From contig JAPLDL010000002.1 in the NCBI GenBank assembly GCA_026391735.1, positions 1 to 64,000 of the forward strand: DNA of 64,000 nucleotides, given 5' to 3'. The stretch comes from Bacteroidota bacterium (GTDB lineage: Bacteria > Bacteroidota > Bacteroidia > Bacteroidales > FEN-979). The notes under the pieces are model-generated. The model was not told where the DNA came from. It ran no database searches and was given only the letters and a program-made list of their open reading frames with translations. A program made the position numbers and the translations under genes. Below are positions 11,855 to 44,733 of this stretch, piece after piece. Positions within the stretch are counted from its first letter, which is position 1, and every line of letters begins with the position of its first letter.

Positions 11855-11917
11855 CCGTGATCCGTAATTCCTGATTCGCGAACCGGTTCACGGATCTCAG
11901 TTCACGGAGCACAGATT
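11855..11917. repeat. 7-nt-periodic inverted repeat (CCGTGAW family)
   Basis: CCGTGAT CCGTAAT TCCTGAT TCGCGAA CCGGTTC ACGGATC TCAGTTC ACGGAGC ACAGATT. Left units ~CCGTGAW, right units are the complement (TTCACGG), centred on GAACCGGTTC. Confidence 0.7.
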
Positions 11918-11923
11918 TTGGGG

Positions 11924-11955
11924 TGCAAAGGTAAAAATATTTTACCACCTTTGCA
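11924..11955. promoter_or_regulatory. palindromic divergent promoter region between the tRNA (-) and the HAD gene (+)
   Basis: tgcaaaggt(11924-11932)...acctttgca(11947-11955) inverted repeat. The minus strand reads TTACCTTTGC, matching the Bacteroidota -7 consensus TAnnTTTG. Confidence 0.55.
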
Positions 11956-11973
11956 ATCGGAAAGCCCGTAACA

Positions 11974-12618
11974 ATGCTTAAACTTATCCCTGCTGCTTCT
12001 GGCGGTAACGATATCCGTAATATTATTTTTGATTTCGGAGGAGTCATCTGCAATATCGACGTCAGATTATCGGAATTGAAATTCAGGGAACTGGGTTTCA
12101 AAGGGTTTAATCCTTCCTACTCGATTGAAGAAGGGGAAGATGTCTTCCGAAGACTGGAAGGTGGAAAAATTTCAATCCCTGGATTTTTTGAAATCCTGAA
12201 AAAACAACTTAAACCCGGCGTCACTGATAATGAGATTCTTGATGCCTGGAATGCTATGATCCTCGATATTCCCCCACGGCGGGTCAGGTTGCTGGAAGAA
12301 GTAAAAAAGTCATACAGGATATTTATACTCAGCAATTCCAACGAAATCCATTATAATAAATATCTTGGTGATTTCAGCCATAGATACGGCTACTCTTCCT
12401 TCACAGATCTATTTGAAAAAACCTGGTTCTCATTCCGTATCCATCTGCAGAAACCATCAAAAGAAATATTTGATTATGTAATAGCGAATGGAGCCCTTTC
12501 TCCCTCGGAAACATTGTTTATCGACGATTCGGTTCAGCATACCGCATCCGCTGCCACTGTTGGGTTAAAGACCTATCACCTGAACCCACCCGAAGAGATC
12601 ACCCAGATCTTTGAATAA
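11974..12618 (+). CDS. HAD-family hydrolase (YihX-like phosphatase)
   Basis: IIFDFGGVICNIDV motif I, FILSNSNEIH motif II, LFIDDSVQHTASA motif IV. Confidence 0.88.
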   Translation: MLKLIPAASGGNDIRNIIFDFGGVICNIDVRLSELKFRELGFKGFNPSYSIEEGEDVFRRLEGGKISIPGFFEILKKQLKPGVTDNEILDAWNAMILDIPPRRVRLLEEVKKSYRIFILSNSNEIHYNKYLGDFSHRYGYSSFTDLFEKTWFSFRIHLQKPSKEIFDYVIANGALSPSETLFIDDSVQHTASAATVGLKTYHLNPPEEITQIFE

Positions 12619-12647
12619 GCGTAAAAGCAGAAAAAGATAAAAAAGGC

Positions 12648-12678
12648 TTGACATTCAGCGAAAAAAGCATTAATTTTG
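12648..12678 (+). promoter_or_regulatory. promoter of queA
   Basis: TTGAC (12648-12652), 18-nt spacer, TAATTTTG (12671-12678), matching the Bacteroidota TTG/TAnnTTTG pattern. Confidence 0.6.
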
Positions 12679-12700
12679 CACGCCTTTTTAATCGACACGC

Positions 12701-13750
12701 ATGAAGCTATCTCAGTTTCGTTTCCACTTGCCACCTGATCTAATTGCTAACCATCCTTCAAAACACCGTGACGACGTCAATATGATGATCCTCGACCGGA
12801 AAAAGCAATCCATTCAGCACAAGCACTTTAAAGATATCCTGAACTATTTTGGCGATGGCGATGTGTTTATAATTAACAACACGAAGGTATTTCCTGCACG
12901 CCTTTATGGGGAAAAAGAAAAGACCGGCGCCAAGATCGAGGTTTTCCTGTTACGGGAACTGAACCGCGAATCCAGGTTATGGGACGTACTCGTTGACCCT
13001 GCCCGTAAGATAAGAATAGGCAACAAATTATATTTTGGCGACGACGATTCCCTGGTTGCCGAAGTGATCGATAATACAACTTCAAGAGGCAGAACCATCC
13101 GGTTTCTTTTTGACGGCCCTTACGATGAATTCAAAAAAACAATCCAGAAGCTTGGCGAAACCCCGCTTCCCAAGATCCATAACCGTCCGGTTACTCATGA
13201 AGACAACGAGCGATACCAGACCATTTTTGCAAAACATGAAGGCGCAGTAGCTGCCCCCACGGCCGGACTGCATTTCACCCGGGAAGTCATGAAACGGCTT
13301 GAACTGAAAGGGGTAAGCTTTGCCGAGATCACCCTGCATGTCGGGCTTGGTAACTTCCGTACAATAGATGTTGAAGACCTCACCAAGCATAAGATGGATT
13401 CCGAAGAAGTAATCATTGAGCCTGAAACTGCAGAGATCGTTAACAAGGCCAAGATGGACAAAAAGAAAATCGTGGCCGTGGGAACAACAACCATGAAAGC
13501 AATCGAATCGTCGGTTACCGTGGGAGGCATGCTAAAACCTTTCAAAGGCTGGACCAACAAGTTCATTTTCCCTCCTTATGAATTCAGCATTGCCAATTGC
13601 ATGATCACTAATTTTCATCTTCCACAGACACCAATGATGATGCTTACTTCCGCTTTTGCCGGATTTGATTTTACCATGAAGTCATACGAGGAAGCCGTTG
13701 AAAAGAAATATAAATTCTTTACCTACGGTGATCCCATGCTCATCCTGTAA
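12701..13750 (+). CDS. queA: S-adenosylmethionine:tRNA ribosyltransferase-isomerase
   Basis: [25 protein letters not shown]..., [41 protein letters not shown]. Confidence 0.95.
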
Positions 13751-13752
13751 AC

Positions 13753-14430
13753 TTGAATAAATTTGCCATCATCGTGGCTGGAGGCAGCGGGAACCGAATG
13801 AGTTCCGCTATTCCCAAGCAATTCCTCAGTCTTGCAGGAAAACCAGTCTTAATGCACTCTATCAAGGCTTTTCACGAATACGATCCCCTGCTGAAAATTA
13901 TTGTAGCGCTTCCCCAGAGCTTGTTCTCAGCCTGGGAAACACTCTGCAAAGAGCATGTCTTTGAGCTACCCCATATTCTTGCAAACGGTGGCAGGATGCG
14001 ATTTGATTCGGTAAAAAATGCACTTTCTTTTGTGTCTGCGGATGGCATTGTCGCAGTCCACGACGGGGTACGGCCGCTTGTAAGCCAGAGCTTGATCTCA
14101 CGCGCTTATGATCATGCTGCCCTTAATGGAAATGCAATACCTTTCACCCCTGTGACAGATTCGGTGCGTGAGTCTTATGGCAATATCAACCAACCACTCA
14201 ACCGCATTAACCTCAGGCTGATCCAGACCCCCCAGGTTTTCCACTCATCCTTGTTGCTGGAGGCATATGCACTGGATTATTCCGACCGGTTCACCGATGA
14301 TGCCAGTGTTATTGAGGCTGCCGGAGTGCCCATAAACCTCATCCCGGGAGAGCCCTATAATATTAAAATTACCTTCCCCGAAGACCTCGCAATCGCTGAA
14401 GCGTTATTGAAATACAGTCAGGCTGGCTAA
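13753..14430 (+). CDS. ispD: 2-C-methyl-D-erythritol 4-phosphate cytidylyltransferase (TTG start)
   Basis: FAIIVAGGSGNRMSSAIPKQFLSLAGKPVLMHSI, VHDGVRPLVS, NLRLIQTPQVF, TDDASVIEAAG. Start codon is TTG, 2 nt after the queA stop. Confidence 0.94.
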   Translation: MNKFAIIVAGGSGNRMSSAIPKQFLSLAGKPVLMHSIKAFHEYDPLLKIIVALPQSLFSAWETLCKEHVFELPHILANGGRMRFDSVKNALSFVSADGIVAVHDGVRPLVSQSLISRAYDHAALNGNAIPFTPVTDSVRESYGNINQPLNRINLRLIQTPQVFHSSLLLEAYALDYSDRFTDDASVIEAAGVPINLIPGEPYNIKITFPEDLAIAEALLKYSQAG

Positions 14431-14439
14431 TTTCACTAC

Positions 14440-15639
14440 CTACCTTCTGAAACTTCTTCCTTTCCAGGTATACCTGCTGAATTGTCCGGCAACGCCTGCT
14501 GTAAGAGAATAAAAAAACTGGAAGACCTGAGCTGCGAAATAATAATTCAAAAGATGTTTTTTATTGAAAAACCCTGCCATCAGCCATACCAGGGGATATT
14601 CCACCAAGATTTTTACAAACCAAAGGAATGAGGAAAGGAGAAGGATCGCCGGATTAAAAATACCCAATATGCCACCGGTCAGGATAAGGAAAGGGAAACC
14701 AAAGGTCAGGGTGCCTGAAAGAATAACCCAGGGATCCCGGTAGGCCCGGCTTTTTGAAACCCATCTCAGCCTCTGCTCCCAGAAATCATTCCAGGTTATT
14801 GAAGGTGAAGTGAGGGTAATTGCATTTCTATCCTTCAGAAAAACCAAAGAGCCTCCTCCCAATTGTTTTCTGAAATTCATCATTAAAAACTGGTCATCCC
14901 CCGAATTGAAAACCCGGTTTCCTGTATACCCCCCTGTTTCCAGGAAAGCTTCCTTACGATAAGCAAGGTTGGCTCCGTTGCACATCAATGGAAAGCACAG
15001 GTTTGCTGAACCGGCTGTAACTCCCATAATTCCCAGAAATTCAAGTACCTGGATATTCTGGAACAATCCTTTCTCGCCTGTAAATCCTACCGGCCCAAGC
15101 ACCATGCTTACGCTCGGGTTCCTGAAACTCCGGGCCATTGCACTGATCCAGGATGTACCATGAACAGTATCGGCATCGGTGGCCAGGATGATATCACCGG
15201 TAGCCACTGCAATAGCTCTCTCGATAGCTTTCTTTTTCCCGGCATTCTCAGAACTGATCTTGTCGGCCTGCAATAGTGTCACCCTCAGTGAGGGGTGTTC
15301 GTAAATCCAATGACGGACTTTTTCGGAGGTATAGTCTTCCGATAAATCATCTGAAACAATGATCTCAAAGAAATCAGCCGGATAGTCCTGCAAAGCTAGA
15401 TCATCTAGGCAAAAGGTGATGACCCTGGCTTCATTCCTAACAGGCAGTACTACCGATATTTTGGCCGTCCCGGTATGGCGCTGTCCCGTTTTAGCTGAAG
15501 AATAATAATTCTCTATCTTATCAGGTCCCTGACCCGTTTTTTGATTTTTCATGGCTCCCGCCGTGATCACCAGCATCATAATACAGTATAAAACTGCAGT
15601 AAGTATAAGGATACAACTGAACGCCAGGTCAAAGTTCAT
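14440..15639 (-). CDS. family 2 glycosyltransferase, membrane-associated
   Basis: ISVVLPVRNEARVI, IIVSDDLSED, ILATDADT, SGDDQFLMMNFRK, QRLRWVSKS, C-terminal TM helices. Confidence 0.88.
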   Translation of the reverse strand: MNFDLAFSCILILTAVLYCIMMLVITAGAMKNQKTGQGPDKIENYYSSAKTGQRHTGTAKISVVLPVRNEARVITFCLDDLALQDYPADFFEIIVSDDLSEDYTSEKVRHWIYEHPSLRVTLLQADKISSENAGKKKAIERAIAVATGDIILATDADTVHGTSWISAMARSFRNPSVSMVLGPVGFTGEKGLFQNIQVLEFLGIMGVTAGSANLCFPLMCNGANLAYRKEAFLETGGYTGNRVFNSGDDQFLMMNFRKQLGGGSLVFLKDRNAITLTSPSITWNDFWEQRLRWVSKSRAYRDPWVILSGTLTFGFPFLILTGGILGIFNPAILLLSSFLWFVKILVEYPLVWLMAGFFNKKHLLNYYFAAQVFQFFYSLTAGVAGQFSRYTWKGRSFRR

Positions 15640-15645
15640 ATGACA

Positions 15646-16662
15646 TCAGGTTTCATTACTACGGAAGAACTGTAAACGGAAGAGAAAAATGCTCCCTGTC
15701 ACAGCGGGGATGCCAAGGTTAATGACCCAAAGCAAAACCGATGCGGTGAGGATGCCAAGATTAAGATCGGCTGAAACGGTCATCAACGGATTGAAATAAA
15801 AACCGAAGAAATAAATGGCTACAGATCCCCGTATTCCCAGCTCAGTCAGTGCAATCGTCGGGATTATGGCCATGATCAGATATATCAGGGATATCAGGAG
15901 ATATGCATAATAAAACGGGACCTTTACACCGAGGGCGATTAACAACAACAGGTACTGGGTTGAAAAGACGAAATATCTCGCAAAGCTCAGAGCCATAACA
16001 ATCCACAGATCCCGGTTTGAATACAGGGTAAAAACCCTGAAATATTTCCTTATCCGGTTCAGACCGTTCCGAAGGATCTTTTCTTTCCATGTTGAAAGAA
16101 AAGATACATTGAAAAAAAGCCCAAGCAGGAGGAAGTCAAGTAAAAGAACCAGGGCAATAAAAGCATAATACAGATATCCGGTGATGAATGAGGCACCCGG
16201 CATGAATATGGGCAGGAAAACCAGCAAAGCGACAGAACCTGTCACTATGGTTACTAACAGCTGGCTCATGCTTCCGATGACAGTAATAAGAATTCCCTCA
16301 ACATGGCTTGCTTTTTTGAGGATAAATGCCCTTCCGAAATATTCTCCAACCCGGTTCGGTGTAAAGGAACTGATCGTAACCCCGGTAAGCACGGCCAGAA
16401 CAGATTGCTTCAAATTCACTTCTTCTACCTTTGAAATCAGGTTTTTCCATTTCCATGCTTCGATCAGCCAGTTAAAAATCATTAAAATCAAAATCAGGGA
16501 AAGTAGCCATAGGAACCTTGGCGAGCTGATGTCATCCTCAAGGGTTTTGAGCAATGCGGGCAAATCCTGCTTCCAGAATACCTGGTTGATAATAAAAAGG
16601 TAGGAAACAATAAGAATTACAAGCTGTATGAGAAGATTATATCTTTTGTATAACTTTGTCAT
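15646..16662 (-). CDS. lysylphosphatidylglycerol synthase TM region/UPF0104-like flippase family protein
   Basis: Multi-TM protein with SSFTPNRVGEYFGRAFIL and IPTIALTELGIRGSVAIYFFG. Confidence 0.75.
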   Translation of the reverse strand: MTKLYKRYNLLIQLVILIVSYLFIINQVFWKQDLPALLKTLEDDISSPRFLWLLSLILILMIFNWLIEAWKWKNLISKVEEVNLKQSVLAVLTGVTISSFTPNRVGEYFGRAFILKKASHVEGILITVIGSMSQLLVTIVTGSVALLVFLPIFMPGASFITGYLYYAFIALVLLLDFLLLGLFFNVSFLSTWKEKILRNGLNRIRKYFRVFTLYSNRDLWIVMALSFARYFVFSTQYLLLLIALGVKVPFYYAYLLISLIYLIMAIIPTIALTELGIRGSVAIYFFGFYFNPLMTVSADLNLGILTASVLLWVINLGIPAVTGSIFLFRLQFFRSNET

Positions 16663-16683
16663 GCCGGCAAATTTAAGCTAAAA

Positions 16684-17244
16684 ATGCCTGAAATAATTCG
16701 TGAAAAGATCATTTTGGGGATCGACCCCGGAACTACCATCATGGGCTACGGAATTATCCGGGTCGATGGAACCAGGATTATTATGCTTGATTTCGGAGTC
16801 TTGAAATTAAACAAATTTGACGACCATCCTTTAAGGCTGAAACTGATATTTGATAAAACCCTCTCACTTATTGAGCAGTATAAACCCGATGAACTTGCCA
16901 TCGAAGCCCAGTTTTTCGGAAAAAATGTACAGTCCATGCTGAAGCTTGGAAGGGCCCAGGGTGTCGCTATAGCCGCAGCATTATCCAGGACCATCCCCAT
17001 ATTCGAATATTCCCCCCGTAAAATCAAACAATCTATTACAGGGAAAGGCGCTGCCTCCAAAGAACAGGTTGCAGCCATGCTTCAGCGATTGCTGCTGCTG
17101 AAAGAAGCACCCGAAAGTTTCGACGCAACGGATGCTTTAGCAGTAGCTGTCTGCCATCACTTCCAGAAAGGAACCGTTGAAACAGGGAAGAAATTTACAG
17201 GATGGAAGAGCTTTTTGACAGCGAATCCGGGAAGAGTTAAGTAA
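16684..17244 (+). CDS. ruvC: crossover junction endodeoxyribonuclease RuvC
   Basis: ILGIDPGTTIMGYGII, LAIEAQFFGKNVQSMLKLGRAQGVAIAAAL, SPRKIKQSITGKGAASKEQV, DATDALAVAVCHH. Confidence 0.95.
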   Translation: MPEIIREKIILGIDPGTTIMGYGIIRVDGTRIIMLDFGVLKLNKFDDHPLRLKLIFDKTLSLIEQYKPDELAIEAQFFGKNVQSMLKLGRAQGVAIAAALSRTIPIFEYSPRKIKQSITGKGAASKEQVAAMLQRLLLLKEAPESFDATDALAVAVCHHFQKGTVETGKKFTGWKSFLTANPGRVK

Positions 17245-17261
17245 CGAAGTAACGAGACAAC

Positions 17262-18440
17262 TTACATAAGCTTCTGATACACCATCCACCAGCGATCGGG
17301 GATGTCGTTGGCGCATGCCTGCTGGTAATCCTTGTAAGAGCAAGGCACCAGGTAATGCCTTTCATATTTGATCTTTTGCTCTGCCGGAAGAGGGATCTCC
17401 ATCCACCAGCGGTCGGTTTTTTTACTTTTAAAGAAAACGATCTCCTCCTTGTGGTCGGTAATGGTAACCCTGTATTTCAGGTAATCTTCTTCGTTTTTAA
17501 ACGGGAAATCATGGGCCCTGTTATAAAATCCGTCGATAAAATACCATATCATCTGCGAAACCAAATGGGCGGTCTGGCCCTGGCGGTCAAATTTTGGATT
17601 TACCTCATAGAATCCAATAGACGTGAGTTTGTCGGAGATCCCTGCATACCTTACGATCTGGCAGGCCTCCTCCCCGTAAAATCCATTCGGGCCGGCATTG
17701 CCATTTCCCGGAGCATCGGAATACCTTACCGCTGAAACATCAAAACTCAGCATATCGGCATTCCTCACAATGGGTTCAACCTCCTCAAGGCTTTCCCTTA
17801 CAATCCCTACCCGGTAAGTATCGAAGAACAGGTTCTTCATCAGCTTTAAAGCATCCTGGTCGATGAAATAACTCTGGTAGCCGATATTTGCATAGTTAAA
17901 GAGGTAATTCGGCTGGTGAAGGATAATGCTGCTGAGAAAAGACTGTGAATCCAGTTCGTTTTCAGTTTTACCCAGGTCGAACATGGGGTCAATCGCTACA
18001 ATATTTATGATCTGACCAAGGCTTTCATATGCTTTATAATTGGCAAAAGTAAGGTCTTGCCCACCACCGAGGATAATCGGGATCACGTTACAGTTGATCA
18101 GCTCGGCTACTGAACTGCTCAGGGCAAAGTAAGTGTCGCTGGGGGAGAATCCTTTCCTGATATTTCCCAGGTCTACAATTTTATTGGCATAGGGCCCCGG
18201 GAACAGCTTGTATAAATAATTCCTCACACTGTCGGGTCCAAGGTCGCAACCCTCATTACCAACTGCATTCCTGTCTTCTTTAACACCAATGATCGCAAGA
18301 TGTGCTTTGGAAAAGTCTGGGAAATTACCGGCTTCGGAATAAATCTCAATGATATTGCCCAGGTGAAGTTGTGACTGCCCCTCATTGGTCATTGGGAATT
18401 CAGTGAGATCAACCGGTGAAAAGAAAGTCGAAATGTCCAT
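17262..18440 (-). CDS. arginase/agmatinase/formimidoylglutamase superfamily protein
   Basis: IIGVKEDRNAVGNEGCDLGPDSVRNYLY, PIILGGGQDLTFANYKAYE, LSFDVSAVRYSDAPG. Confidence 0.85.
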   Translation of the reverse strand: MDISTFFSPVDLTEFPMTNEGQSQLHLGNIIEIYSEAGNFPDFSKAHLAIIGVKEDRNAVGNEGCDLGPDSVRNYLYKLFPGPYANKIVDLGNIRKGFSPSDTYFALSSSVAELINCNVIPIILGGGQDLTFANYKAYESLGQIINIVAIDPMFDLGKTENELDSQSFLSSIILHQPNYLFNYANIGYQSYFIDQDALKLMKNLFFDTYRVGIVRESLEEVEPIVRNADMLSFDVSAVRYSDAPGNGNAGPNGFYGEEACQIVRYAGISDKLTSIGFYEVNPKFDRQGQTAHLVSQMIWYFIDGFYNRAHDFPFKNEEDYLKYRVTITDHKEEIVFFKSKKTDRWWMEIPLPAEQKIKYERHYLVPCSYKDYQQACANDIPDRWWMVYQKLM

Positions 18441-18446
18441 GGTTCT

Positions 18447-20783: not shown

Positions 20784-20798
20784 TTCCCAATCCGGTTA

Positions 20799-20833
20799 CA
20801 AAAGTACGACAATTAACATAATACGTACCTTTG
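20799..20833. promoter_or_regulatory. divergent promoters for topA (-) and miaB (+)
   Basis: Minus-strand TACTTTTG (caaaagta at 20799-20806) and plus-strand TACCTTTG (20826-20833), both matching TAnnTTTG. Confidence 0.5.
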
Positions 20834-20877
20834 TGCCCCATTTAATCCTTAATCCGCCTAAGTGGGAAAGGTGATAT

Positions 20878-22212
20878 ATGACAGAAAATAAAATCAGGAA
20901 ATTCTATATCGAGACCTATGGCTGTCAGATGAATTTTTCTGACAGTGAGATCGTTGCATCAATTCTTACCGATGGGGGGTTCCAGGCCTCCGGTAACCTT
21001 CAGGAAGCTGATATTGTATTACTGAATACCTGTTCCATAAGGGAGCATGCCGAGGACAGGGTTCGAAAACGACTTCATTACTTCCGCTCGTTGAAGAAGA
21101 AAAACCCGGGACTTACCATTGGCTTGCTCGGGTGCATGGCTGAACGGACGAAATTCGCCCTGATGGAAGAAGAACAGCTGCTGGATGTGATTGCCGGACC
21201 TGATTCCTACCGTCACCTTCCAGGCTTACTGGAGCAGGCGGGTTCAGGACAAAGGGCTATTGACACAATTCTTTCAGCGGATGAGACATATGCTGATATC
21301 AATCCCGTGAGGCTTGATTCTAACGGGATCTCATCCTTTATCTCGATCATGCGCGGATGTGAGAATTTCTGCTCTTACTGTGTAGTGCCTTATGCACGCG
21401 GACAGGAACGCAGCCGTGATCCGGAAACCGTGATCCGGGAATCGAGAGATTTGTTCATACAGGGATACAGGGAAGTTACCCTGCTGGGCCAGAATGTGAA
21501 TTCTTACTTTTGGAAAGAAGGGAATGAAACAGTGAACTTTCCGGGTCTTCTTGAACGGATCGCGGTTCTCGATCCACAGCTGAGAGTGCGGTTTGCGACT
21601 TCTCATCCCAAAGATCTGAGCCTCGAAGTCATTGAAATAATTGAAAAGTATCCGAATATCTGCAAAGCCATCCATCTTCCTGTCCAAAGCGGAAGCGACA
21701 AGATCCTGGATAAAATGAACCGTAAGTATACCCGCGAGGAATACCTCGGGAAGATCAGGACTATTCGCAGTAAGATTCCAGGATGTGCAATATCCACCGA
21801 TATAATTACCGGTTTCTGTGATGAGACAGAAGAAGATCATAAACAAACCCTTGAGCTGATGAAGGAAGCAGCATTCGACTTTGCCTTTACCTTCAAGTAT
21901 TCCGAAAGGCCTCAAACCATTGCTGCTGAACAATATGAAGATAACGTACCTGCCCCGGTAAAGGAAAGAAGATTGAGGGAGATCATTGAACTGCAGCAGG
22001 AACTTTCATCAGCCAGCAACCACAGGGACCTTGGTGAAACATTTGAGGTACTTATTGAAGGTGAATCGAAGCGCAGTGACAAACAATATTTCGGCAGGAA
22101 CTCCCAGAACAAAGTGATGGTGTTTCCTAAAACATCCCTGAAACCCGGGGAATATGTAAAAGTGAAGGTAAAAAGGGTCACTTCTGCCACTCTGATAGGC
22201 GAGGCAATATAA
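20878..22212 (+). CDS. miaB: tRNA-2-methylthio-N6-dimethylallyladenosine synthase
   Basis: YIETYGCQMNFSDSEIVASIL, SFISIMRGCENFCSYCVVPYARGQERSR, HLPVQSGSDKILDKMNRKYTREEYL, C-terminal TRAM-like domain. Confidence 0.95.
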   Translation: MTENKIRKFYIETYGCQMNFSDSEIVASILTDGGFQASGNLQEADIVLLNTCSIREHAEDRVRKRLHYFRSLKKKNPGLTIGLLGCMAERTKFALMEEEQLLDVIAGPDSYRHLPGLLEQAGSGQRAIDTILSADETYADINPVRLDSNGISSFISIMRGCENFCSYCVVPYARGQERSRDPETVIRESRDLFIQGYREVTLLGQNVNSYFWKEGNETVNFPGLLERIAVLDPQLRVRFATSHPKDLSLEVIEIIEKYPNICKAIHLPVQSGSDKILDKMNRKYTREEYLGKIRTIRSKIPGCAISTDIITGFCDETEEDHKQTLELMKEAAFDFAFTFKYSERPQTIAAEQYEDNVPAPVKERRLREIIELQQELSSASNHRDLGETFEVLIEGESKRSDKQYFGRNSQNKVMVFPKTSLKPGEYVKVKVKRVTSATLIGEAI

Positions 22213-22223
22213 GACCTTATCTT

Positions 22224-22270
22224 GCTGAATATCTGATATTTGATATCTGACAATCTGACATCCGCAGTAA
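22224..22270. repeat. 7/8-nt-periodic intergenic repeat (ATCTGAY family)
   Basis: GCTGAAT ATCTGAT ATTTGAT ATCTGAC AATCTGAC ATCCGCA immediately downstream of miaB; a partial complement (gatattgtca) follows. Confidence 0.6.
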
Positions 22271-22331
22271 GATATTGTCATGAAAATTTTAGGATGTTTC
22301 ATGCATTTTGTTAGTTTTGCCTGAAATTCCT

Positions 22332-22339
22332 TAATTTTG
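22332..22339 (+). promoter_or_regulatory. -7 promoter element for the wza-like gene
   Basis: TAATTTTG with TTTTG about 21 nt upstream. Confidence 0.45.
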
Positions 22340-22360
22340 CACCTTCAATTTCAGCAATAT

Positions 22361-26593: not shown

Positions 26594-26628
26594 TTTACGA
26601 GTTACAAATTACGATTTACGATTTTAAG
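26594..26628. repeat. 7-nt-periodic intergenic repeat (TTTACGA family)
   Basis: TTTACGA GTTACAA ATTACGA TTTACGA TTTTAAG starting at the first base after the cysD stop codon. Confidence 0.7.
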
Positions 26629-28018: not shown

Positions 28019-30349
28019 ATGAAAATATTCCGACTTTTTTTACTGTCCTGCATCCTGTATCCTGCATCCCTGTTCTCCCAGAACCCACAGATCCCCATCG
28101 GACAGTGGAGAGATGAACTTCCTTACAATTTCTGCAACTCAGTTGCGGAAGCCGGCAACCGTATCTATTCATCAACGCCCTATGCTGTACTTTACTTTGA
28201 CAAGGAAGATAACAGCGTGACCAGGATCACAAAAATCCAGGGGCTTTCCGATATAGGGATCAATTGCATCGCTTATAATACTTCAACAAAAACACTTGTC
28301 ATCGCATACTCCGACGCGAATATTGACCTTATCCAGAACAATGCAATAATCAATATCTCCGATATCTACAGGAAAACCATACTCGGGAATAAAACGATCA
28401 ACAGCATTTACTGCCTCGGTAATTATGCCTATCTCCAATGCGGGTTCGGGATCGTAGTCCTTGACCTTGTAAAACAGGAGATCAGGGAAACATACTATAT
28501 CGGGAACGGAGGCACACAGGTGAATGTAATGAGCCTGGTTAAGGATGACAGTGATACCCTTTGGGCTGCAACCGAGAAAGGGATCTACAAAGCCTGGTAT
28601 AAAGATCCCAACCTGGCTAACTATGCCGTTTGGAAAAAGGACAAGAGAATGGATACTACCTTGATGTACAATACTATAACATATTTTTCAGGCAAGGTTG
28701 TGGTCAACAGGCAAAGGCCGAACCTACAGGATACACTGTTTGTATATAATGGGCAATGGTCGGCCTGGAATACCGGCGAAAAATTTAAGGTTATGAACCT
28801 TAACAGCATGTATAATTTACTGATTGTCACTTATCAGTATAGTGTTGAAGTGTTTGATCCGAACTACGCATTGCTGAAACGGGTTTACGGCTACCCGGGA
28901 GCCGGATCGTTTCCCCAGGATGCCATCTGTGATCAAAACCAGACAATATGGATTGCCGATTCTTATTCCGGGCTCGTAAGCTATGAGCTGAGTTCCGAGC
29001 AGATCAAAACCTATAATCTGAGCGGGCCCTTAAGCGCCAACGCCTTCACTATGAGCTCGCTGAACAATGACCTGCTTATCGCCCCGGGTGGTTACGATGC
29101 ATCCTATGTGCCACTTGCACAACCTGCCCAGATCTATCATTTTGACGACTCCAACTGGAAGAATCTTTCGGGAGACAATAATCCTGCTTTATTTAATTAC
29201 AGCAATATCGTTTCGGTAATAGCAGATCCCTCCGACCCGAAAAGACTCTTTGCAGCCACATGGGGCTATGGCTTGCTTGAATTCTACGACGGCGTGCTAT
29301 CCCGCAGGTATACAGAATCTAACAGCACTTTGCACCATCACTCGGCCGGGGATTCATCCATCATCCGTGTGGGAGGTTCTGCATTCGACGCCCATGGTTT
29401 CCAATGGATCGACTGCTCCCATACAAATCAATGCCTTTCATTGAAAAGGGGAAGCCAATGGACCGGTTTCACCATTACCATTAATAATGAAACGGACCTT
29501 GGACAGATCATTGCCACCAGGAATGACCAGGTATGGATGCAAATGCGGTATGGTAACCTGAACCCGAATTCTATTTTGGTGTTTACTGATAACGGCACCC
29601 CTGATAACCCAAGTGATGACGATGCAAAAAAGCTGAACAACACCCCGGGTAACGGCAATATCCCTGGAAATTCAGTCTTCTCCATGGCCGAAGATAAAAA
29701 CGGGCAGGTCTGGGTCGGGACTGAAAGCGGGGTAGGTGTATTTTACAGCCCCGAAGACCTCTTTACCCAGAATCCTTCCGATTGCCAGAGGCCGCTTGTT
29801 CAGCAGGGACAATATACGCAGTACCTGCTGGAAAGTGAACAGGTGAATGCTATTGCTGTGGACGGGAGCAACCGCAAATGGATGGGTACCGACCGCGGAG
29901 GTGCTTACCTTTTCTCGGCCGACGGCACAAAGCAGGTGTATCATTTTACGGCGGAAAACAGCCCCCTTTTGTCCGACAGGGTGAGCTCAATCGCTATCAA
30001 CGGGAATACGGGCGAAGTGTATTTTGGAACTGATAAAGGAGTGATCTCTTTTAAAAGCACAGCGACCGAAGGCGGAGATTCTTTCGGCGACGTATATGCC
30101 TACCCAAATCCTGTGCGTGAAGGCTACCAGGGTTATATTGCGGTTAAAGGCCTGCTAAGCAATGCCCAGATCCGAATCACGGATGTGAGCGGCAAGCTTG
30201 TATTTACCGGTAAAGCTGAGGGCGGACAGGCTGTATGGGACGGAACAACCATGGATGGTAAAAAAGTCCATACAGGAGTGTATATGGTTTTTGCCTCAAA
30301 TGAGGATGGCAGCGATAAAGTAGTTACCAAAATCCTCGTGATCAACTGA
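28019..30349 (+). CDS. porZ: PorZ-like type IX secretion-associated beta-propeller protein with C-terminal sorting domain
   Basis: IPIGQWRDELPYNFCNSVAEAGNRIYSSTPYAVLYFDKEDNSVTRITKIQGLSDIGINCIAYN...; propeller repeats; C-terminal AYPNPVREGYQGYIAVKGL...; adjacent to recO. ORF-track start 27995 is a TTG; ATG at 28019 precedes a signal peptide. Confidence 0.82.
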   Translation: MKIFRLFLLSCILYPASLFSQNPQIPIGQWRDELPYNFCNSVAEAGNRIYSSTPYAVLYFDKEDNSVTRITKIQGLSDIGINCIAYNTSTKTLVIAYSDANIDLIQNNAIINISDIYRKTILGNKTINSIYCLGNYAYLQCGFGIVVLDLVKQEIRETYYIGNGGTQVNVMSLVKDDSDTLWAATEKGIYKAWYKDPNLANYAVWKKDKRMDTTLMYNTITYFSGKVVVNRQRPNLQDTLFVYNGQWSAWNTGEKFKVMNLNSMYNLLIVTYQYSVEVFDPNYALLKRVYGYPGAGSFPQDAICDQNQTIWIADSYSGLVSYELSSEQIKTYNLSGPLSANAFTMSSLNNDLLIAPGGYDASYVPLAQPAQIYHFDDSNWKNLSGDNNPALFNYSNIVSVIADPSDPKRLFAATWGYGLLEFYDGVLSRRYTESNSTLHHHSAGDSSIIRVGGSAFDAHGFQWIDCSHTNQCLSLKRGSQWTGFTITINNETDLGQIIATRNDQVWMQMRYGNLNPNSILVFTDNGTPDNPSDDDAKKLNNTPGNGNIPGNSVFSMAEDKNGQVWVGTESGVGVFYSPEDLFTQNPSDCQRPLVQQGQYTQYLLESEQVNAIAVDGSNRKWMGTDRGGAYLFSADGTKQVYHFTAENSPLLSDRVSSIAINGNTGEVYFGTDKGVISFKSTATEGGDSFGDVYAYPNPVREGYQGYIAVKGLLSNAQIRITDVSGKLVFTGKAEGGQAVWDGTTMDGKKVHTGVYMVFASNEDGSDKVVTKILVIN

Positions 30350-33553: not shown

Positions 33554-33607
33554 AAAAAGGATATATTTGCAATCTCTTCATCTATAATAAATTATTAAAA
33601 ACATCGC

Positions 33608-35538: not shown

Positions 35539-35539
35539 A

Positions 35540-36166: not shown

Positions 36167-36170
36167 ACTA

Positions 36171-37451: not shown

Positions 37452-37475
37452 TTTTATCACCTAATCACAGAACCC

Positions 37476-38378: not shown

Positions 38379-38381
38379 CGT

Positions 38382-38852
38382 ATGAGAAACATCATCAAAA
38401 CTGCAGTAGTAATGCTGCTGCTTATCTCTCCGGCAATAAAGGGATCGGCCCAAACCCATAAAGCAGACGATATCCTTGGGACCTGGCTGAACCAGGAAGC
38501 TACCGGCAAAATTACTATCTATAAAGAAGGCGATAAATATTTCGGCAAACTGGTCTGGCTAAGAACCCCGCTCGATTCAATTACAAACCTCCCCCGGACC
38601 GACAAGGAAAATCCTGATACAAAACTGAAATCAGTTCCCCTGATCGGCCTGGTTAACCTTAAGAATTTTACATTTAACGGGAAAGAAGAATGGTCGGGAG
38701 GGACAATTTACGATCCTAAAAACGGCAAGACCTACAAATGCTATATCCAGTTCGAATCGGCGAACCGCCTCAAAATCAGAGGCTATATTGGTGTTTCGCT
38801 GCTTGGCAGGAATACATTCTGGACAAAATCATTTATGCAGGAAACAAAATAA
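38382..38852 (+). CDS. DUF2147 family secreted protein
   Basis: DDILGTWLNQEATGKITIYKEGDKYFGKLVWL ... WSGGTIYDPKNGKTYKCYIQFESANRLKIRGYIGVSLLGRNTFWTK. Confidence 0.88.
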   Translation: MRNIIKTAVVMLLLISPAIKGSAQTHKADDILGTWLNQEATGKITIYKEGDKYFGKLVWLRTPLDSITNLPRTDKENPDTKLKSVPLIGLVNLKNFTFNGKEEWSGGTIYDPKNGKTYKCYIQFESANRLKIRGYIGVSLLGRNTFWTKSFMQETK

Positions 38853-39764
38853 ATGCCCGCAATCCTCGTCGAACATATCTCCAAACAGTTCTCCGGCGTC
38901 AAAGCCCTTGATGACATTTCATTTAGCATTGACAATGGAGAATTGTTTGGTTTTATTGGACCCGATGGAGCCGGTAAAACAACCTTGTTCCGCATTCTTA
39001 CCACCCTGTTGTTACCCGACAGCGGAACAGCAATGGTCAATGGCCTGGACGTGGTTAATGACTATCTCAGGATAAGACAGGACATTGGGTACATGCCAGG
39101 CAGGTTTTCATTGTATTCAGACCTTAGTGTTGAGGAAAACCTGAATTTTTATGCCACCGTTTTCGGTACGACAATTGCCGAAAACTATGAGCTTATCAGG
39201 GATATTTATATCCAGATAGAACCTTTCAAAAAAAGGATGGCCGGCAAACTTTCGGGAGGCATGAAGCAAAAGCTGGCATTATCCTGCGCTCTGATCCATA
39301 AACCGTCTGTTCTTATACTGGATGAACCAACCACAGGCGTGGATGCTGTTTCCCGGCTTGAATTCTGGGAGATGCTGAAGCGCCTGAAAAACAGCGGTAT
39401 AACCATTGCGGTTGCCACACCTTATATGGATGAGGCCAGCCTGTGCGACCGGGTGGCCCTGATCCAAAACGGAAAGCTTATGGCTGTGAGCACGCCGATA
39501 GAAGTCACTAAAACATATCCCTGGAAACTGTTCTCGGTTAAGGCGGATGATATTTTCGGTCTGCTCAATGATCTGAGAAATTTCCCCGGGGTGCATACTG
39601 TCTTTGCCTTTGGACAGGCCGCTCATGTCTCATTCAAAGACAGGCAGACGGGAGAAGAGAAACTCGTTGAATATCTGCAGATGAAAGGGCATACGGGTAT
39701 AAGTGTCCATTCTGCCGATGCAAATATTGAGGATTGTTTCATGGAACTGATGATAAAAACGTGA
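38853..39764 (+). CDS. ABC transporter ATP-binding protein (YbhF N-half-like)
   Basis: GPDGAGKTTLFRIL Walker A, KLSGGMKQKLALSCALIHKPSVLILDEPTTGVD. Confidence 0.95.
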   Translation: MPAILVEHISKQFSGVKALDDISFSIDNGELFGFIGPDGAGKTTLFRILTTLLLPDSGTAMVNGLDVVNDYLRIRQDIGYMPGRFSLYSDLSVEENLNFYATVFGTTIAENYELIRDIYIQIEPFKKRMAGKLSGGMKQKLALSCALIHKPSVLILDEPTTGVDAVSRLEFWEMLKRLKNSGITIAVATPYMDEASLCDRVALIQNGKLMAVSTPIEVTKTYPWKLFSVKADDIFGLLNDLRNFPGVHTVFAFGQAAHVSFKDRQTGEEKLVEYLQMKGHTGISVHSADANIEDCFMELMIKT

Positions 39765-39821
39765 ACGGTGAATCGTGAGCCGTGAATCCTTTTCGGCTCA
39801 CGACTCACGACTCACGGATTA
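39761..39821. repeat. 7-nt-periodic inverted repeat (GTGAATC/GTGAGCC family)
   Basis: GTGAACG GTGAATC GTGAGCC GTGAATC cttttc GGCTCAC GACTCAC GACTCAC GGATTAA. Includes a perfect 10-bp stem tcgtgagccg(39773-39782)/cggctcacga(39794-39803). The ATPase stop codon TGA (39762-39764) lies in the first unit. Confidence 0.8.
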
Positions 39822-39823
39822 AT

Positions 39824-40570
39824 ATGTATAATCCAAACGCCGAAAATATAATAGTTGTGAAAGACCTCGTGAAGAGATTCGGGTCCTTCATCGCCAATGA
39901 CCACCTCTGTTTCGAGGTGAAAAAAGGGGAGATCTTCGGCTTCCTCGGGGCGAACGGGGCAGGAAAGACCACCGCAATTAAAATCCTCTGCGGGCTATCC
40001 TATCCAACATCGGGACAGCTTAATGTAGGTGGTTTCGATATTTATAAAGAAAGGGAAAAAATCAAAAGGAACATCGGTTATATGAGCCAGAAGTTCTCTT
40101 TGTATGACGACCTTACCGTCTTTGAAAACATCAGGTTTTATGCCGGGATCTATGGCATGAGAAGGAAAGTGATCGAAGAACGGGCTGCCGATCTCACTGA
40201 AAAGCTTGACATGAAAGAAGCCCGTGACATGCTTATCAGGGATATTCCCCTGGGATGGAAACAAAAACTGGCTTTTTCGGTAGCTATCATCCATAACCCT
40301 AAAATAGTTTTCCTGGATGAACCCACTGGAGGCGTTGACCCGGTGACCAGGCGACAGTTTTGGGATATGATCTTTAAGGCTTCCCGCGAAGGTATTACGG
40401 TATTTGTAACAACACATTATATGGATGAAGCCGAATACTGCGACCGGGTTTCCATTATGGTCGATGGGAAAATCGCAGCCCTGGATACCCCCGACAACCT
40501 TAAAAAACATTACGGAGCCAACTCCATGAATGAAGTATTTTTAAAACTTGCAAGAATCAAAATAGAATAA
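39824..40570 (+). CDS. ABC transporter ATP-binding protein (YbhF C-half-like)
   Basis: GANGAGKTTAIKILCGL, LGWKQKLAFSVAIIHNPKIVFLDEPTGGVDPVTRRQFW. ORF-track start 39782 reads through the repeat; ATG 39824 preferred. Confidence 0.94.
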   Translation: MYNPNAENIIVVKDLVKRFGSFIANDHLCFEVKKGEIFGFLGANGAGKTTAIKILCGLSYPTSGQLNVGGFDIYKEREKIKRNIGYMSQKFSLYDDLTVFENIRFYAGIYGMRRKVIEERAADLTEKLDMKEARDMLIRDIPLGWKQKLAFSVAIIHNPKIVFLDEPTGGVDPVTRRQFWDMIFKASREGITVFVTTHYMDEAEYCDRVSIMVDGKIAALDTPDNLKKHYGANSMNEVFLKLARIKIE

Positions 40571-40571
40571 C

Positions 40572-41018
40572 ATGTCGTTAGCTCAGAAATTAAAACCATC
40601 CGTCAGCAGGCATAACCTGTTGTTTATCGCAGGTCTTGCATGGACCACCGCCGGGGGAATACTGATGTGGAGAGGCCTGGATTATGAGATGAAACATTCA
40701 CCCCACCTCTGGCTTAATATTCTGATCGGCATCGTTATCGGAATCCCTTTTTATTTCATACTGTTCGCCAGAATCTCTTACAAGCATATAAAACGTATCA
40801 AAGGGCTTAGCATCCCTTACCCATGTGCGTTCTCCTTTTTCAACCTAAGGTCATACATCATGATGATGCTGATGATCACCTCCGGAATTTTATTGAGAAG
40901 GTTTGACGTGATCAACAGGGAATATCTGTTTACATTTTATATTGGAATGGCCCTGCCTCTTCTGATCTCGGCCTTCCGGTTCTATTATACATGGGCTTCC
41001 AAAAGAGACATTGAATGA
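40572..41018 (+). CDS. small integral membrane protein within the ABC exporter operon
   Basis: 148-aa, about four TM segments; 1-nt gap from the upstream ATPase and 4-nt overlap with the downstream permease. Confidence 0.7.
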   Translation: MSLAQKLKPSVSRHNLLFIAGLAWTTAGGILMWRGLDYEMKHSPHLWLNILIGIVIGIPFYFILFARISYKHIKRIKGLSIPYPCAFSFFNLRSYIMMMLMITSGILLRRFDVINREYLFTFYIGMALPLLISAFRFYYTWASKRDIE

Positions 41019-42118
41019 AACGGTTCCTGGGCTTCATTGTAAAGGAATTCTACCATATCTTCAGGGATTACCGCACCCTGCTTATCCTTTTCGGACTTCC
41101 CGCCGTGCAGCTGCTTCTGTTTGGCTATGTAATCACCAATGAAATCAAAGATGCACGCATCGCGATCCTTGATCAGTCGAAAGATGAAATCACCCGAAGA
41201 ATAAGTGAAAAAGTGCTGTCGTCAGGCTATTTCATTCTCGATAAAAACCTCAGATCGGTTAGTGAAATCGGACAGGTCTTCAGGCAGGGAAATGTAAAAC
41301 TGGTACTGATCTTTGGTCCCGACTTTTCAAAAAACCTGGATAAGACAGGCAATGCCAGGGTTCAGATCGTAGCCGATGCATCCGATCCCAATACGGCCAG
41401 CATCCTGGTCAATTATATCCAGGGTATTTTGTCGAACTACCTGATCTCACTGAATGCCGAAAAAATACCTATGCAGATCGTTCCCGAGGTGAGGATGATG
41501 TACAACGGACAGATGAAAGGAGTTTATATGTTCGTTCCCGGCCTCATGGCGATGCTTCTTATGCTGATCTCTGCACTGATGACTTCCCTTTCCATAACCA
41601 AAGAAAAAGAATTAGGCACCATGGAACTTCTGCTGGTATCACCGCTTAAACCAATTCAGATCATTATCGGCAAAGTCTTTCCTTATGTATTTCTTGCTTT
41701 TATCGACGCATGTATCATTATCTTACTGGGGAATACTGTTTTCGGAGTTCCTGTGGTGGGGAGCGTGGGCCTGCTCCTGGCCGAAAGTTTCCTGTACATC
41801 TGCATGGCTCTCTCCCTTGGGATACTGATCTCCACGATCACCAGCAGCCAGCAGATCGCCATGATGCTTTCACTGGTCGCACTTATGCTGCCAACTATCC
41901 TTCTCAGCGGATTTATTTTCCCCGTCGAAAACATGCCCTGGATACTTCAGGTATTTTGTCATATCATGCCCCCTAAATACTTTATCACTATCATAAAAAG
42001 TATCATGCTCCAGGGTAACGGTTTCAGGTATATCGCATTTGAAACCTTTATAATGCTTGGGTTTACCTTGTTTTTTATCTTTCTCAGCGTAAAAAAATTC
42101 AAGATCAGGCTCGCCTGA
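41015..42118 (+). CDS. ABC-2 type permease (YbhS/YbhR-like)
   Basis: MKRFLGFIVKEFYHIFRDYRTLLILFGLPAVQLLLFGYVITNEIKD ... SITKEKELGTMELLLVSPLKPIQIIIGKVFPYV. Confidence 0.94.
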   Translation: MKRFLGFIVKEFYHIFRDYRTLLILFGLPAVQLLLFGYVITNEIKDARIAILDQSKDEITRRISEKVLSSGYFILDKNLRSVSEIGQVFRQGNVKLVLIFGPDFSKNLDKTGNARVQIVADASDPNTASILVNYIQGILSNYLISLNAEKIPMQIVPEVRMMYNGQMKGVYMFVPGLMAMLLMLISALMTSLSITKEKELGTMELLLVSPLKPIQIIIGKVFPYVFLAFIDACIIILLGNTVFGVPVVGSVGLLLAESFLYICMALSLGILISTITSSQQIAMMLSLVALMLPTILLSGFIFPVENMPWILQVFCHIMPPKYFITIIKSIMLQGNGFRYIAFETFIMLGFTLFFIFLSVKKFKIRLA

Positions 42119-42129
42119 AATGCACGGAT

Positions 42130-43248
42130 ATGAGAACCTTGTTATTCATAATACAAAAAGAATTCCTCCAGATCTTCCGGAACAAGGGGATGCTTCCCAT
42201 CATTTTTATAGTTCCTATCGTCCAGCTGCTGATACTTGTGAATGCCGCAACATTCGAGATGAAGAACATCCGGGTTTCAGTGGTTGATATGGACCTGAGC
42301 TCATCTTCCCGCAAGCTTATCAGCAAATACGAGGGTTCCCCTTTCTATAAAGTCGTGCAAACAACGTTTTCCTATGATGAAGCCATGGACCTGATGCAGA
42401 AAGGGAAAGTGGATGTGATCATCAGGATACCAAACGGGTTTGAGCGCCAGCTGGTAAAGGAAAACCTCAGCAAGGTGCAGTTTGTCATCAATGCCATCAA
42501 CCAGGCGGTAGCCGGTTTAAGCAGCGGGTATTGCACCTCCATCCTAATCGACTTTAACAGGGAACTGATGCAGGACTGGCTCAGCCCGGCACAAATGGCG
42601 GGCCTTAAAAATATTCAAACCGATTTTTCATACTGGTATAATCCGAAACTCAACTATAAAACCTATATGGTGCCGGGTATCCTGGTATTGCTGGTGACTA
42701 TCATAGGATTGCTGCTCTCGGGGATGAATATCGTTCGCGAAAAGGAAATCGGCACTATTGAACAGATCAATGTTACCCCAATCCGTAAAATTCAGTTTAT
42801 TGCCGGAAAACTTGCCCCATTTTGGATCATTGCCCTGTTTGAACTTGCTTTCGGACTTTCAATAGGCAAGTTAGTGTTTGATATTCCGACAGTTGGCAAC
42901 CTGTGGCTTATATTCCTGTCGGGGGGAATTTATCTTTTCGTAATTTTGTCTATCGGGTTGCTGATTTCTACGATTACAAACACCCAGCAACAGTCGATGC
43001 TGGTGACGTTCTTTTTCATGGTGGTTTTCATACTGATGAGCGGGTTGTTTACCTCAATCGAAAGCATGCCCGCTTGGGCACAGCAGGTCGACAGGCTGAA
43101 CCCCCTGATGTATTTCATTAAGATCATGAGGATGGTACTATTAAAAGGATCTGCATTTGCTGATATCAGTTCTCTTTTCTATTCACTGGTCGTTTTTGCC
43201 ATCGTCATGTCCAGCCTGGCTGTCTGGAGATACAGGAAAGTAGCATAA
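42130..43248 (+). CDS. ABC-2 type permease (YbhS/YbhR-like), second subunit
   Basis: LLFIIQKEFLQIFRNKGMLPIIFIVPIVQLLILVNAATFEMKNI ... NIVREKEIGTIEQINVTPIRKIQFIAGKLAPFW. Confidence 0.94.
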   Translation: MRTLLFIIQKEFLQIFRNKGMLPIIFIVPIVQLLILVNAATFEMKNIRVSVVDMDLSSSSRKLISKYEGSPFYKVVQTTFSYDEAMDLMQKGKVDVIIRIPNGFERQLVKENLSKVQFVINAINQAVAGLSSGYCTSILIDFNRELMQDWLSPAQMAGLKNIQTDFSYWYNPKLNYKTYMVPGILVLLVTIIGLLLSGMNIVREKEIGTIEQINVTPIRKIQFIAGKLAPFWIIALFELAFGLSIGKLVFDIPTVGNLWLIFLSGGIYLFVILSIGLLISTITNTQQQSMLVTFFFMVVFILMSGLFTSIESMPAWAQQVDRLNPLMYFIKIMRMVLLKGSAFADISSLFYSLVVFAIVMSSLAVWRYRKVA

Positions 43249-43255
43249 CAATATA

Positions 43256-44668
43256 TTGACCAAAGTAAGGATTTTCATTCGAAGGTTCAGGACCATCCTG
43301 ATGGGAGTGGCTCTTGTTGGCATAGCATTTTACATAACCCATAAGATCTATTACCATGAAGAAGAGAAGAAAGATGCATTTAAAAGGATACGTGAAAGAG
43401 GCTACCTTCTTGCCCTGACCGATCGCAACACCCTGAATTATTTCCTGTACCGTGGAGAACCCTCCGGTTTTCAACTGGAACTGCTGGAATCCTTTGCAGC
43501 CTATCTTGATGTTCCCCTTAGGATCATAGCCTCGGAAGATATCTCAAAGCTGTATTATTATCTTAATTTTAATGTGGCGGATGTGATCGCCCTTAACCTC
43601 CCCGTTTCGTCGGAAGGAAGGCGGCTTGTGCATTACAGCAAAATCATGGGGGAAACCCGTCTGATTCTGTTGCAGCAAAAAGGTACTATTCCAGGATTCA
43701 AAAAATCCCTGGCTGATTTTACCAGGTCCGACACAGTTCATGCCAGGCGGAATGTATTCATGTCTCCCTATTACCGGTCCTTCCTCAAGCAAACTGCAAA
43801 ACGACCCACACTGATCGAGGAACCTGATATCTCACAGGAAGGACTGATCAGAAAAGTTTCCGATGGGAGCATCCGGTATCTGCTTTGCCCTGAAAATACA
43901 GCGATGGTATATAAACGGTATTACCAGAATCTGGATGCTTCGCTTGTGGTATTTCCGTTGTATGCCTACGCCTGGGGAGTGAATCATAATTCGGATACCT
44001 TGCTGATGAAGCTCGATGAATGGCTGGCCGGATCGAAAAGGTCGGGGGAATTTAAGAAAACATATCTCGATTATTATGCAAACCAGAAGATCGTGAGCAA
44101 TATGAGAAGTGATTATGTTACCCTGAGGGGAGATCACCTGTCCCCTTTCGACAAAGAACTCAGGGAACTCAGCCTGAAAATTCACTGGGACTGGAGGTTG
44201 CTTGCTTCCCTGGTTTATGAAGAATCAAATTTCAGGCTGGGCCAGGTCTCCTCCAGGAGTGCATACGGTTTAATGCAACTGATGCCCGAAACTGCTGTAA
44301 AGATGGGGATGGACAGTATCGCCACCCCGGTCCAGCAACTTGCAGCAGGCGTCCGTTATATCAAACATCTTGACGAACAGTTGCCGAATGAAATTACTAA
44401 CCCAAAAGACCGGATAAAATTTATCCTTGCCTCGTATAATGTAGGTATCGGACGGGTCCTTTTGGCCAGGGAAAAAGCTAAGAAGTTCGGCAAAGATCCT
44501 AACCTTTGGGACCGAAACGTGGAGTATTACCTGCTCAGACGGTCCAAAAAAGATCCTTATGCCAAAAACGACACGCTTGATGACTCTTCAGCCGATTATA
44601 CAAAGGCAGGATTTGTCGACGATATCATCAACAGGTATTATCATTACAGGAATAATATACCACAGTAA
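43256..44668 (+). CDS. MltF-like lytic transglycosylase (SBP_bac_3 + SLT domain); TTG start
   Basis: GYLLALTDRNTLNYFLYRGEPSGFQLELLESFAAYLDVPLRIIAS (SBP) and LLASLVYEESNFRLGQVSSRSAYGLMQLMPETAVKMGM...ILASYNVGIGRVLLA (SLT). Confidence 0.9.
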   Translation: MTKVRIFIRRFRTILMGVALVGIAFYITHKIYYHEEEKKDAFKRIRERGYLLALTDRNTLNYFLYRGEPSGFQLELLESFAAYLDVPLRIIASEDISKLYYYLNFNVADVIALNLPVSSEGRRLVHYSKIMGETRLILLQQKGTIPGFKKSLADFTRSDTVHARRNVFMSPYYRSFLKQTAKRPTLIEEPDISQEGLIRKVSDGSIRYLLCPENTAMVYKRYYQNLDASLVVFPLYAYAWGVNHNSDTLLMKLDEWLAGSKRSGEFKKTYLDYYANQKIVSNMRSDYVTLRGDHLSPFDKELRELSLKIHWDWRLLASLVYEESNFRLGQVSSRSAYGLMQLMPETAVKMGMDSIATPVQQLAAGVRYIKHLDEQLPNEITNPKDRIKFILASYNVGIGRVLLAREKAKKFGKDPNLWDRNVEYYLLRRSKKDPYAKNDTLDDSSADYTKAGFVDDIINRYYHYRNNIPQ

Positions 44669-44670
44669 AC

Positions 44671-44733
44671 ATCTGCCATCTGATATCTGCCATCCGCCAT
44701 CAGATATCAGATGGCAGATGGCAGATGGCACTT
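44671..44733. repeat. 7-nt-periodic perfect-register inverted repeat (ATCTGCC/ATCTGAT family)
   Basis: ATCTGCC ATCTGAT ATCTGCC ATCCGCC | ATCAGAT ATCAGAT GGCAGAT GGCAGAT GGCACTT; right arm is the complement of the left in heptad register. Confidence 0.9.

Follow-up and report, generated by a model that had tools for sequence, protein, structure and literature searches.

Introduction

Reports of bacterial repeats with a unit of seven nucleotides (nt) go back decades, but neither their origin nor their function is known. One such repeat, STRR1 of the short tandemly repeated repetitive (STRR) sequences, has the unit CCCCART, degenerate at one position. We describe tandem arrays of 7-nt units (heptads) and 8-nt units (octads) in a member of the Bacteroidota (GTDB Bacteroidales, FEN-979; assembly GCA_026391735.1), starting from a window of 64,000 nt, the forward strand of contig JAPLDL010000002.1 from position 1 to position 64,000. 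The arrays sit at recurrent, tolerated positions, in spacers (the 3' ends of genes among them) and in the loops or linkers of proteins. The closest species inherit the same unit type at a given position; over longer times it is replaced by another from the repertoire of the species, or the position is empty. We give an even chance to the reading that the arrays form a family-wide, mutation-driven, and mostly neutral (selfish) satellite system.

In filamentous cyanobacteria, STRR sequences have a unit of 7 bp and are scattered among spacers; several of them can fold into hairpins between genes, and their function is unknown (PMC2670836). The arrays studied here likewise have 7-nt tandem units in many dispersed spacers (lag-7 excess, 87 runs in 864 kb), some of them hairpin-forming, and the comparison with STRR made in a preliminary description of the window was apt. 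They would differ from STRR in the presence of octads, in the many unit types per genome, in the replacement of types at orthologous sites, and in the in-frame copies within essential genes.

TAACTGA heptamers occur in Beggiatoaceae, cyanobacteria, and five Bacteroidetes as direct intergenic arrays at gene borders, with a patchy distribution; some lie inside open reading frames (ORFs) in the stop-free orientation, a single inverted case has been reported, and related heptamers are rarely repeated (PMC4679880). They are mostly found just upstream of start codons, and those of the Beggiatoaceae were proposed as binding sites for a post-transcriptional regulator (PMC4679880). In contrast, the present arrays comprise many units, many are inverted, and their bias is toward stop codons rather than start codons. 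The TAACTGA unit is not among the unit types catalogued here.

The REP/RPE palindromes (GTAG and CGTC families) are short and lie downstream of genes; some are found in genes, often those of replication or repair, and two Xanthomonas species carry one at about the same site in recB (PMC3733652). The present arrays are heptad-periodic, lack a fixed hairpin tagged with GTAG or CGTC, have no adjoining transposase, and on these grounds fall outside the REP/RAYT systems. The tandem repeats of archaeal Borgs evolve fast; besides those in spacers, there are in-frame copies that encode disordered stretches of proteins (PMC9879509). Borg repeats are described as direct and lie on extrachromosomal elements, whereas the arrays described here are chromosomal, have units of 7-8 nt, and are often inverted.

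A literature search found no paper describing such arrays in Bacteroidales. This agrees with the preliminary description, which was aware of no established account of the inverted form in Bacteroidota, but hairpin-forming STRR sequences are known in cyanobacteria (PMC2670836) and heptamers in a few Bacteroidetes (PMC4679880). The arrays work like the STRR and TAACTGA heptanucleotide repeats and probably belong with them. Their novelty lies in a combination of features: units of both 7 and 8 nt, a variety of types in each genome, fixed sites at which the type is replaced, copies in frame within essential enzymes, fixed and free positions within the unit, and random unit order.

Heptad and octad periodicity in the genome and the family

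The assembly measures 2.81 Mb in 25 contigs, and the genome-wide counts come from 864 kb sampled in stretches; the relatives were sampled in stretches as well. At each lag, a run was counted if 17 or more of 21 positions matched. There were 87 runs at lag 7 (58 in spacers and 29 in predicted genes) and 28 at lag 8, as opposed to 0 to 7 at each of lags 4-6, 9-13, and 15; lags 14, 16, 21, and 24 are harmonics. Dinucleotide shuffles yielded zero. The coding share is only approximate because gene prediction relied on a simple script based on codon usage.

Each unit pattern was matched in its own genome against a control, the same pattern read backwards. The forward and backward counts were 423 and 0 for ATCYGMY, 466 and 0 for TATCCMGY, and 39 and 1 for CGTGA. 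Unit types seen at least twice were joined by 36 single-substitution links, compared to 13.2±3.6 among composition-matched random units, and all unit types together by 137, compared to 66±6. The scan and the unit matches thus support the preliminary claim of a dispersed family with a 7-nt register and recurring unit types, including the lag-7 excess over shuffled DNA that had been suggested as its check. The claim that the family is intergenic is too narrow, since arrays also occur in frame in genes, essential ones included, and an 8-nt class exists.

The nearest named relatives of the window's genome (G000) are uncultured Bacteroidales genomes, a genome labelled Prolixibacteraceae being more distant. 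The other seven genomes of the genus (G001-G007) and G010, from another genus of the same family, contained 2.6-29 arrays per 100 kb. Two further genera of the family, G012 and G008, had fewer by the same count (4.0 and 10.4), those of G008 being partly A/T-rich simple sequence. In three other families of the order, a total of 260 kb contained no lag-7 or lag-8 run at the strict cut. The family as a whole has about 14 main unit types, in a mix that differs by species: ATCYGMY is frequent in G000, G003, and G004 and almost missing from G001, G005, G006, and G007, and the octad is frequent in G000, G004, and G006. Exact matches to ATCTGAY were also found on sixteen contigs of a viral collection (L117-L132), some of which carry several heptad arrays; these contigs may be phage, prophage, or host DNA.

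Fixed sites and changing units

Orthologous spacers of the eight genus genomes were aligned via their flanking genes in three regions. Out of 55 such spacers, 35 were never occupied, and four were occupied in seven species. Occupancy clustering amounted to 333, compared to 144±10 after permutation, and 0 of 2,000 permutations gave a value as high. The presence/absence comparison proposed in the preliminary description thus found sites that are empty, filled, or filled with other units, depending on the species.

Arrays from different species agreed in unit type in 12% of pairs when they lay at the same site and in 3.6% when the sites differed. Agreement at the same site was more frequent between the closest species (6 of 11 for G000 and G004; 5 of 9 for G004 and G006). 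Therefore, unit types are inherited over the short term and replaced over the long term. At one site (L085 site 6), an ATCTGCC hairpin stands next to a CGTAAAT remnant in G000 and G004, and CGTAAAT stands alone in G006, a succession that may represent a layering of arrays. A strong hairpin is found there in six or seven species, with differing units.

Arrays inside coding sequences

An array in an open frame was present in 25 of 637 predicted genes. According to Pfam, the proteins include ValS, CysS, HisS, PurL, and a DNA polymerase III alpha paralogue, "DnaE2," among others; DnaE2 and the main DnaE are separate proteins, 32% identical. Most coding arrays are located at the edges of domains or between them, and that of ValS is located within a long match to the catalytic domain. 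In PurL and DnaE2, whose flanks are 81-91% identical at the protein level, five loops contain in most species a heptad or octad stretch of the species' own type, such as the CCCCAAT/CCCCAGT units in the purL loop of G002, the one place where units resembling CCCCART were seen, and in some species the loops are non-repetitive. Inversion is found in several of these stretches, which also fold well (z down to -8.4). These loops provide our strongest argument that an array is positioned by tolerance and that its inverted form stems from the way in which it was made.

The in-frame copies also bear on the proposal that the arrays are binding sites for DNA- or RNA-binding proteins, the degenerate unit being the recognition motif. 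The units do resemble motif logos, and the TAACTGA repeats have been proposed as regulator sites (PMC4679880). However, about 14 main types would have to be accounted for, many of them in one genome, and sister species have different types at the same gene; moreover, the arrays are found in frame within enzymes and are scarcer in divergent (promoter) spacers. We therefore consider binding-site arrays highly improbable.

Placement of arrays and hairpin formation

As had been suggested from the window, arrays lie near stop codons. Of the array edges facing a stop codon, 58 of 90 were at most 20 nt from it, as opposed to 21 of 68 edges facing a start codon; the median distances were 3 nt to the flanking stop codon and 37 nt to the flanking start codon. 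The share of spacers with an array was 24% for convergent, 14% for co-directional, and 8% for divergent ones. The strand of the arrays showed no clear pattern with respect to transcription or GC skew, the numbers being small.

The preliminary description took the arrays to be mostly heptads plus their reverse complement. This is true of three of the five window loci (11855, 39761, and 44671) but not of the genome, where 24 of 110 arrays were inverted by a strict unit test (15 of 30 in the ATCYGNY type). It had also suggested hairpins at mRNA 3' ends, and inverted arrays could indeed be bidirectional terminators or 3'-end stabilizers kept by selection while their sequence drifts. The stop-codon bias, the high occupancy of convergent spacers, the hairpin of six or seven species at L085 site 6, and the better folding of array-bearing spacers (median fold z, -1.71 versus -0.33 for other spacers) would all be expected of such a role. 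Yet inverted arrays are a minority, their frequency is similar in divergent (2 of 8) and convergent (5 of 19) spacers, and orthologous sites are often wholly empty. An intrinsic terminator, moreover, consists of a hairpin and a T run and is absent from coding sequence, whereas the same inverted architecture is present in the purL and dnaE2 coding loops; after the window arrays, no T run was visible by eye, without a systematic look.

Given the empty orthologous sites, the hairpins in coding loops, and the majority of direct arrays, a general terminator role is not supported, and we regard selection for 3'-end hairpins as quite improbable. Constraint from promoters and genes explains the bias toward stop codons and convergent spacers as well as a terminator role would. 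The hairpins of some single arrays may have been co-opted by the cell, which would not be the reason for the family.

Internal structure of arrays

Units are alike about twice as often within one array (0.33-0.58 over the distances counted) as between arrays (0.18), and their order inside arrays is near random. The sole sign of local duplication is a weak excess of likeness at a distance of two units (p 0.013-0.023). The positions of the unit behave unequally. In ATC.G.., the named positions are 97-99% fixed and the others vary. The octad has five positions out of eight that are fixed to 96% or more. As judged from small samples, the free positions of ATCTGAC are the same in G000 as in G004, and those of the octad are the same in G000, G004, and G006.

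These properties argue against ordinary simple-sequence repeats that arise at each locus independently by polymerase slippage alone. In many genomes, no other class of repeats of 5-11 nt is as common as the heptanucleotides, and polymerase slippage has been blamed for them (Mrazek 2007, as cited in PMC4679880); moreover, the arrays of G000 and G004 at L085 site 6 differ by 14 nt, that is, by two units. However, independent slippage would produce unrelated units, whereas each genome has the same few types at dozens of loci, and these types change by species. Local slippage would make neighboring units the most alike, and here they are not; the position-specific conservation and the inverted arms also count against it. 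Slippage as the only cause was accordingly left unsupported, and we think this explanation quite unlikely.

Arrays in the window

All five loci of the preliminary description were found at their coordinates (Table 1). Self-match at lag 7 was 79% at 44671-44733, 68% at 26594-26628, 63% at 39761-39821, 57% at 11855-11917, and 47% at 22224-22270. Three arrays (26594, 39761, and 44671) passed a strict cut for the window, a self-match of at least 16 of 21, compared to 0.15 expected from dinucleotide shuffles. Tandem Repeats Finder (TRF) detected the window arrays too, with low scores. The loci at 11855 and 22224 fail the strict test alone; judging by their shared units and by the relatives, we take them to be degenerate members. 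The former has two three-unit matches to CGTGA, one on each strand, and a fold z of -1.8. Among Rfam families, tRNA was the sole match in the window above the gathering score.

Table 1. Arrays of the window and the Y1 transposase gene of the genus
Feature	Position	Strand	Context and remarks
Degenerate inverted array, CGTGAWY type	11855..11917		tRNA-Met (11776-11851, minus) on one side, HAD-family gene (11974-12618, plus) on the other
8-nt doublet AAGTAACG	17239..17255	+	At ruvC stop codon; TRF
Degraded direct array, ATCTGAY	22224..22270	+	Between miaB and polysaccharide-export gene
Direct array, TTTACGA/ATTACGA	26594..26628	+	Begins at cysD stop, ahead of cysN
Inverted array, CGTGAWY units	39761..39823		Stop/start junction of two ABC ATPase genes; fold z -5.6
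Inverted array, ATCYGMY units	44671..44733		Between convergent mltF-like and epimerase genes; fold z -5.2
Y1/HUH transposase gene	L038 1363-1770; G000:C9:141419-141763	minus	Single copy, fixed place after ctaB-like gene

The relatives differ at each of these sites. At 44671, we found CCATGAG 7-mers in L090, AATGGTGA 8-mers in G003, GCGAAAA in G002, TAGCGAAG 8-mers in G005, and 16 bp without an array in L093, making six different contents in all, one being none. The site at 39761 is empty in G001, G004, and G006, where the stop and start codons simply overlap, and is filled with a GCCATGA 7-mer in G002, a AATGGTGA 8-mer in G003, and a TTCGCTAC/TTCGCTAT 8-mer in G005. Between cysD and cysN, TGTACGA is repeated eight times in G003, ATGTACA is found in G004 and G007, and the site is empty in G001 and G006. 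At 22224, G003 has ATCTGCC units and G007 ATCCTGC/ATCCCGC; the spacer from miaB to the promoter (22213-22360) measures 146-148 nt in seven genomes despite partial replacement of its sequence. A weak sixth locus had been proposed at the ruvC stop codon. In the window it is an octad doublet, and the heptad arrays lie at the orthologous sites of relatives: G002 and G007 have true arrays there, and G003 has an inverted repeat that is weaker and heptad-like.

Within genes of the window, ATCCTGC heptads were seen at 28042-28075, close to the start of the ORF at 28019-30349. A lag-7 pattern in miaB (21415-21447) was dropped as a coding array: it is a chance pattern in coding sequence conserved in all relatives. 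Since this case proved to be ordinary conserved sequence, single weak lag-7 matches inside genes are not to be trusted.

Other dispersed elements were noted beside the arrays. A conserved element of ~55 nt (TTCGGCKAAKCCGAAATGAGCACCAAATAAAATTAAYAATAWTGCGAATAA) splits heptad or octad arrays of differing types at L046 site 9 in G004, at the window site 26594 in G002, and at the window site 39765 in G003; it resembles a small mobile element in its own right. A second spacer family of ~100 nt, GCGAAGCATTTTACACAAGCC...GCGGTGTAAAATTGCGAGCG, is a long imperfect palindrome without a 7-nt period; several genomes of the genus have it at L046 sites 5 and 10. Octad arrays often adjoin a GC-rich hairpin, for example, GGCGCGAAGCGCC or GCAGCGCTGTGCGCTGC (L081 11010-11162, L072 18978-19055, and L046 13074-13139).

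Origin and meaning of the arrays

If the arrays are a mostly neutral satellite system, template switching in a register of 7-8 nt would produce them while DNA is replicated or repaired. Misalignment along a strand would generate direct arrays, and fold-back or strand switching would generate inverted ones. Units would be related by point substitution and, between the two lengths, by one-base indels, and some templating between loci would spread a type through the genome. Selection would merely remove harmful positions, keep the frames of genes open, and thin out promoter regions.

SbcCD cleaves palindromes. SbcD was not found above the curated cut-off in 22 of the 23 family genomes searched, and it was found in seven of fourteen other families searched. 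The loss of SbcCD may permit long inverted repeats. It would not cause them, because other families without SbcD have no arrays; at most, it would be permissive, and it would be insufficient for the arrays.

Several observations weigh against the satellite reading. Three families with few or no arrays also lack SbcD (G026 and G031 were sampled). A seed match at empty sites was found for one array only (CGTGA at 39761) and is not general. Adjacent units are no more alike than units in shuffled order (0.359 versus 0.369; 0.351 versus 0.363), and multi-unit blocks common to different loci are not beyond chance, both of which count here because plain slippage or block copying predicts the opposite; block copying between loci was rejected, there being no excess. 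Finally, about 4-6 positions per unit type are nearly fixed and the rest degenerate. This pattern holds in more than one species and is not expected from unconstrained mutation.

The same regularities would suit a dedicated writer or mobile system, a sequence-specific enzyme with a degenerate unit code, for example, a HUH (RAYT-like) transposase or a novel polymerase. A unit position either hardly varies or is freely degenerate, and within a type the degenerate positions agree between species (G000 and G004 for ATCTGAC; G000, G004, and G006 for the octad); unit order is random, types are species-wide, and all 8 genus genomes encode one intact Y1 (HUH) transposase. However, the Y1 gene is at least about 2.4 kb from the nearest array in 8 genomes, has no match in the array-bearing G011, and is also present in families without arrays. 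Array ends have no clear or common tag (GTAG 6.0% and CGTC 4.7%, compared to a background of 2.8 and 2.5%). Reverse transcriptase was rejected as the writer, PF00078 being missing from G001-G006, that is, from 6 of the 8 genus genomes. A dedicated writer is thus possible but unlikely.

We hold a similarly tentative view of lineage-specific, sequence-specific writing without reverse transcriptase. Such a process would lay down units of 7-8 nt from a code in which some positions are fixed and others free. It would place the units randomly and in both orientations and would rewrite the same sites, loops of essential proteins included, with a code that changes between species. Although unlikely, it is kept under consideration because neither pure slippage nor unconstrained drift predicts the fixed and free positions.

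The family supplies many close genomes in which the same site is empty, filled, or refilled with another unit, and coding flanks fix the alignment. Fixed positions with replaced sequence, degenerate codes, and random order place a strong and testable constraint on any mechanism. In the genomes themselves, repeats of a non-coding type keep feeding new peptide sequence into the loops of essential enzymes.

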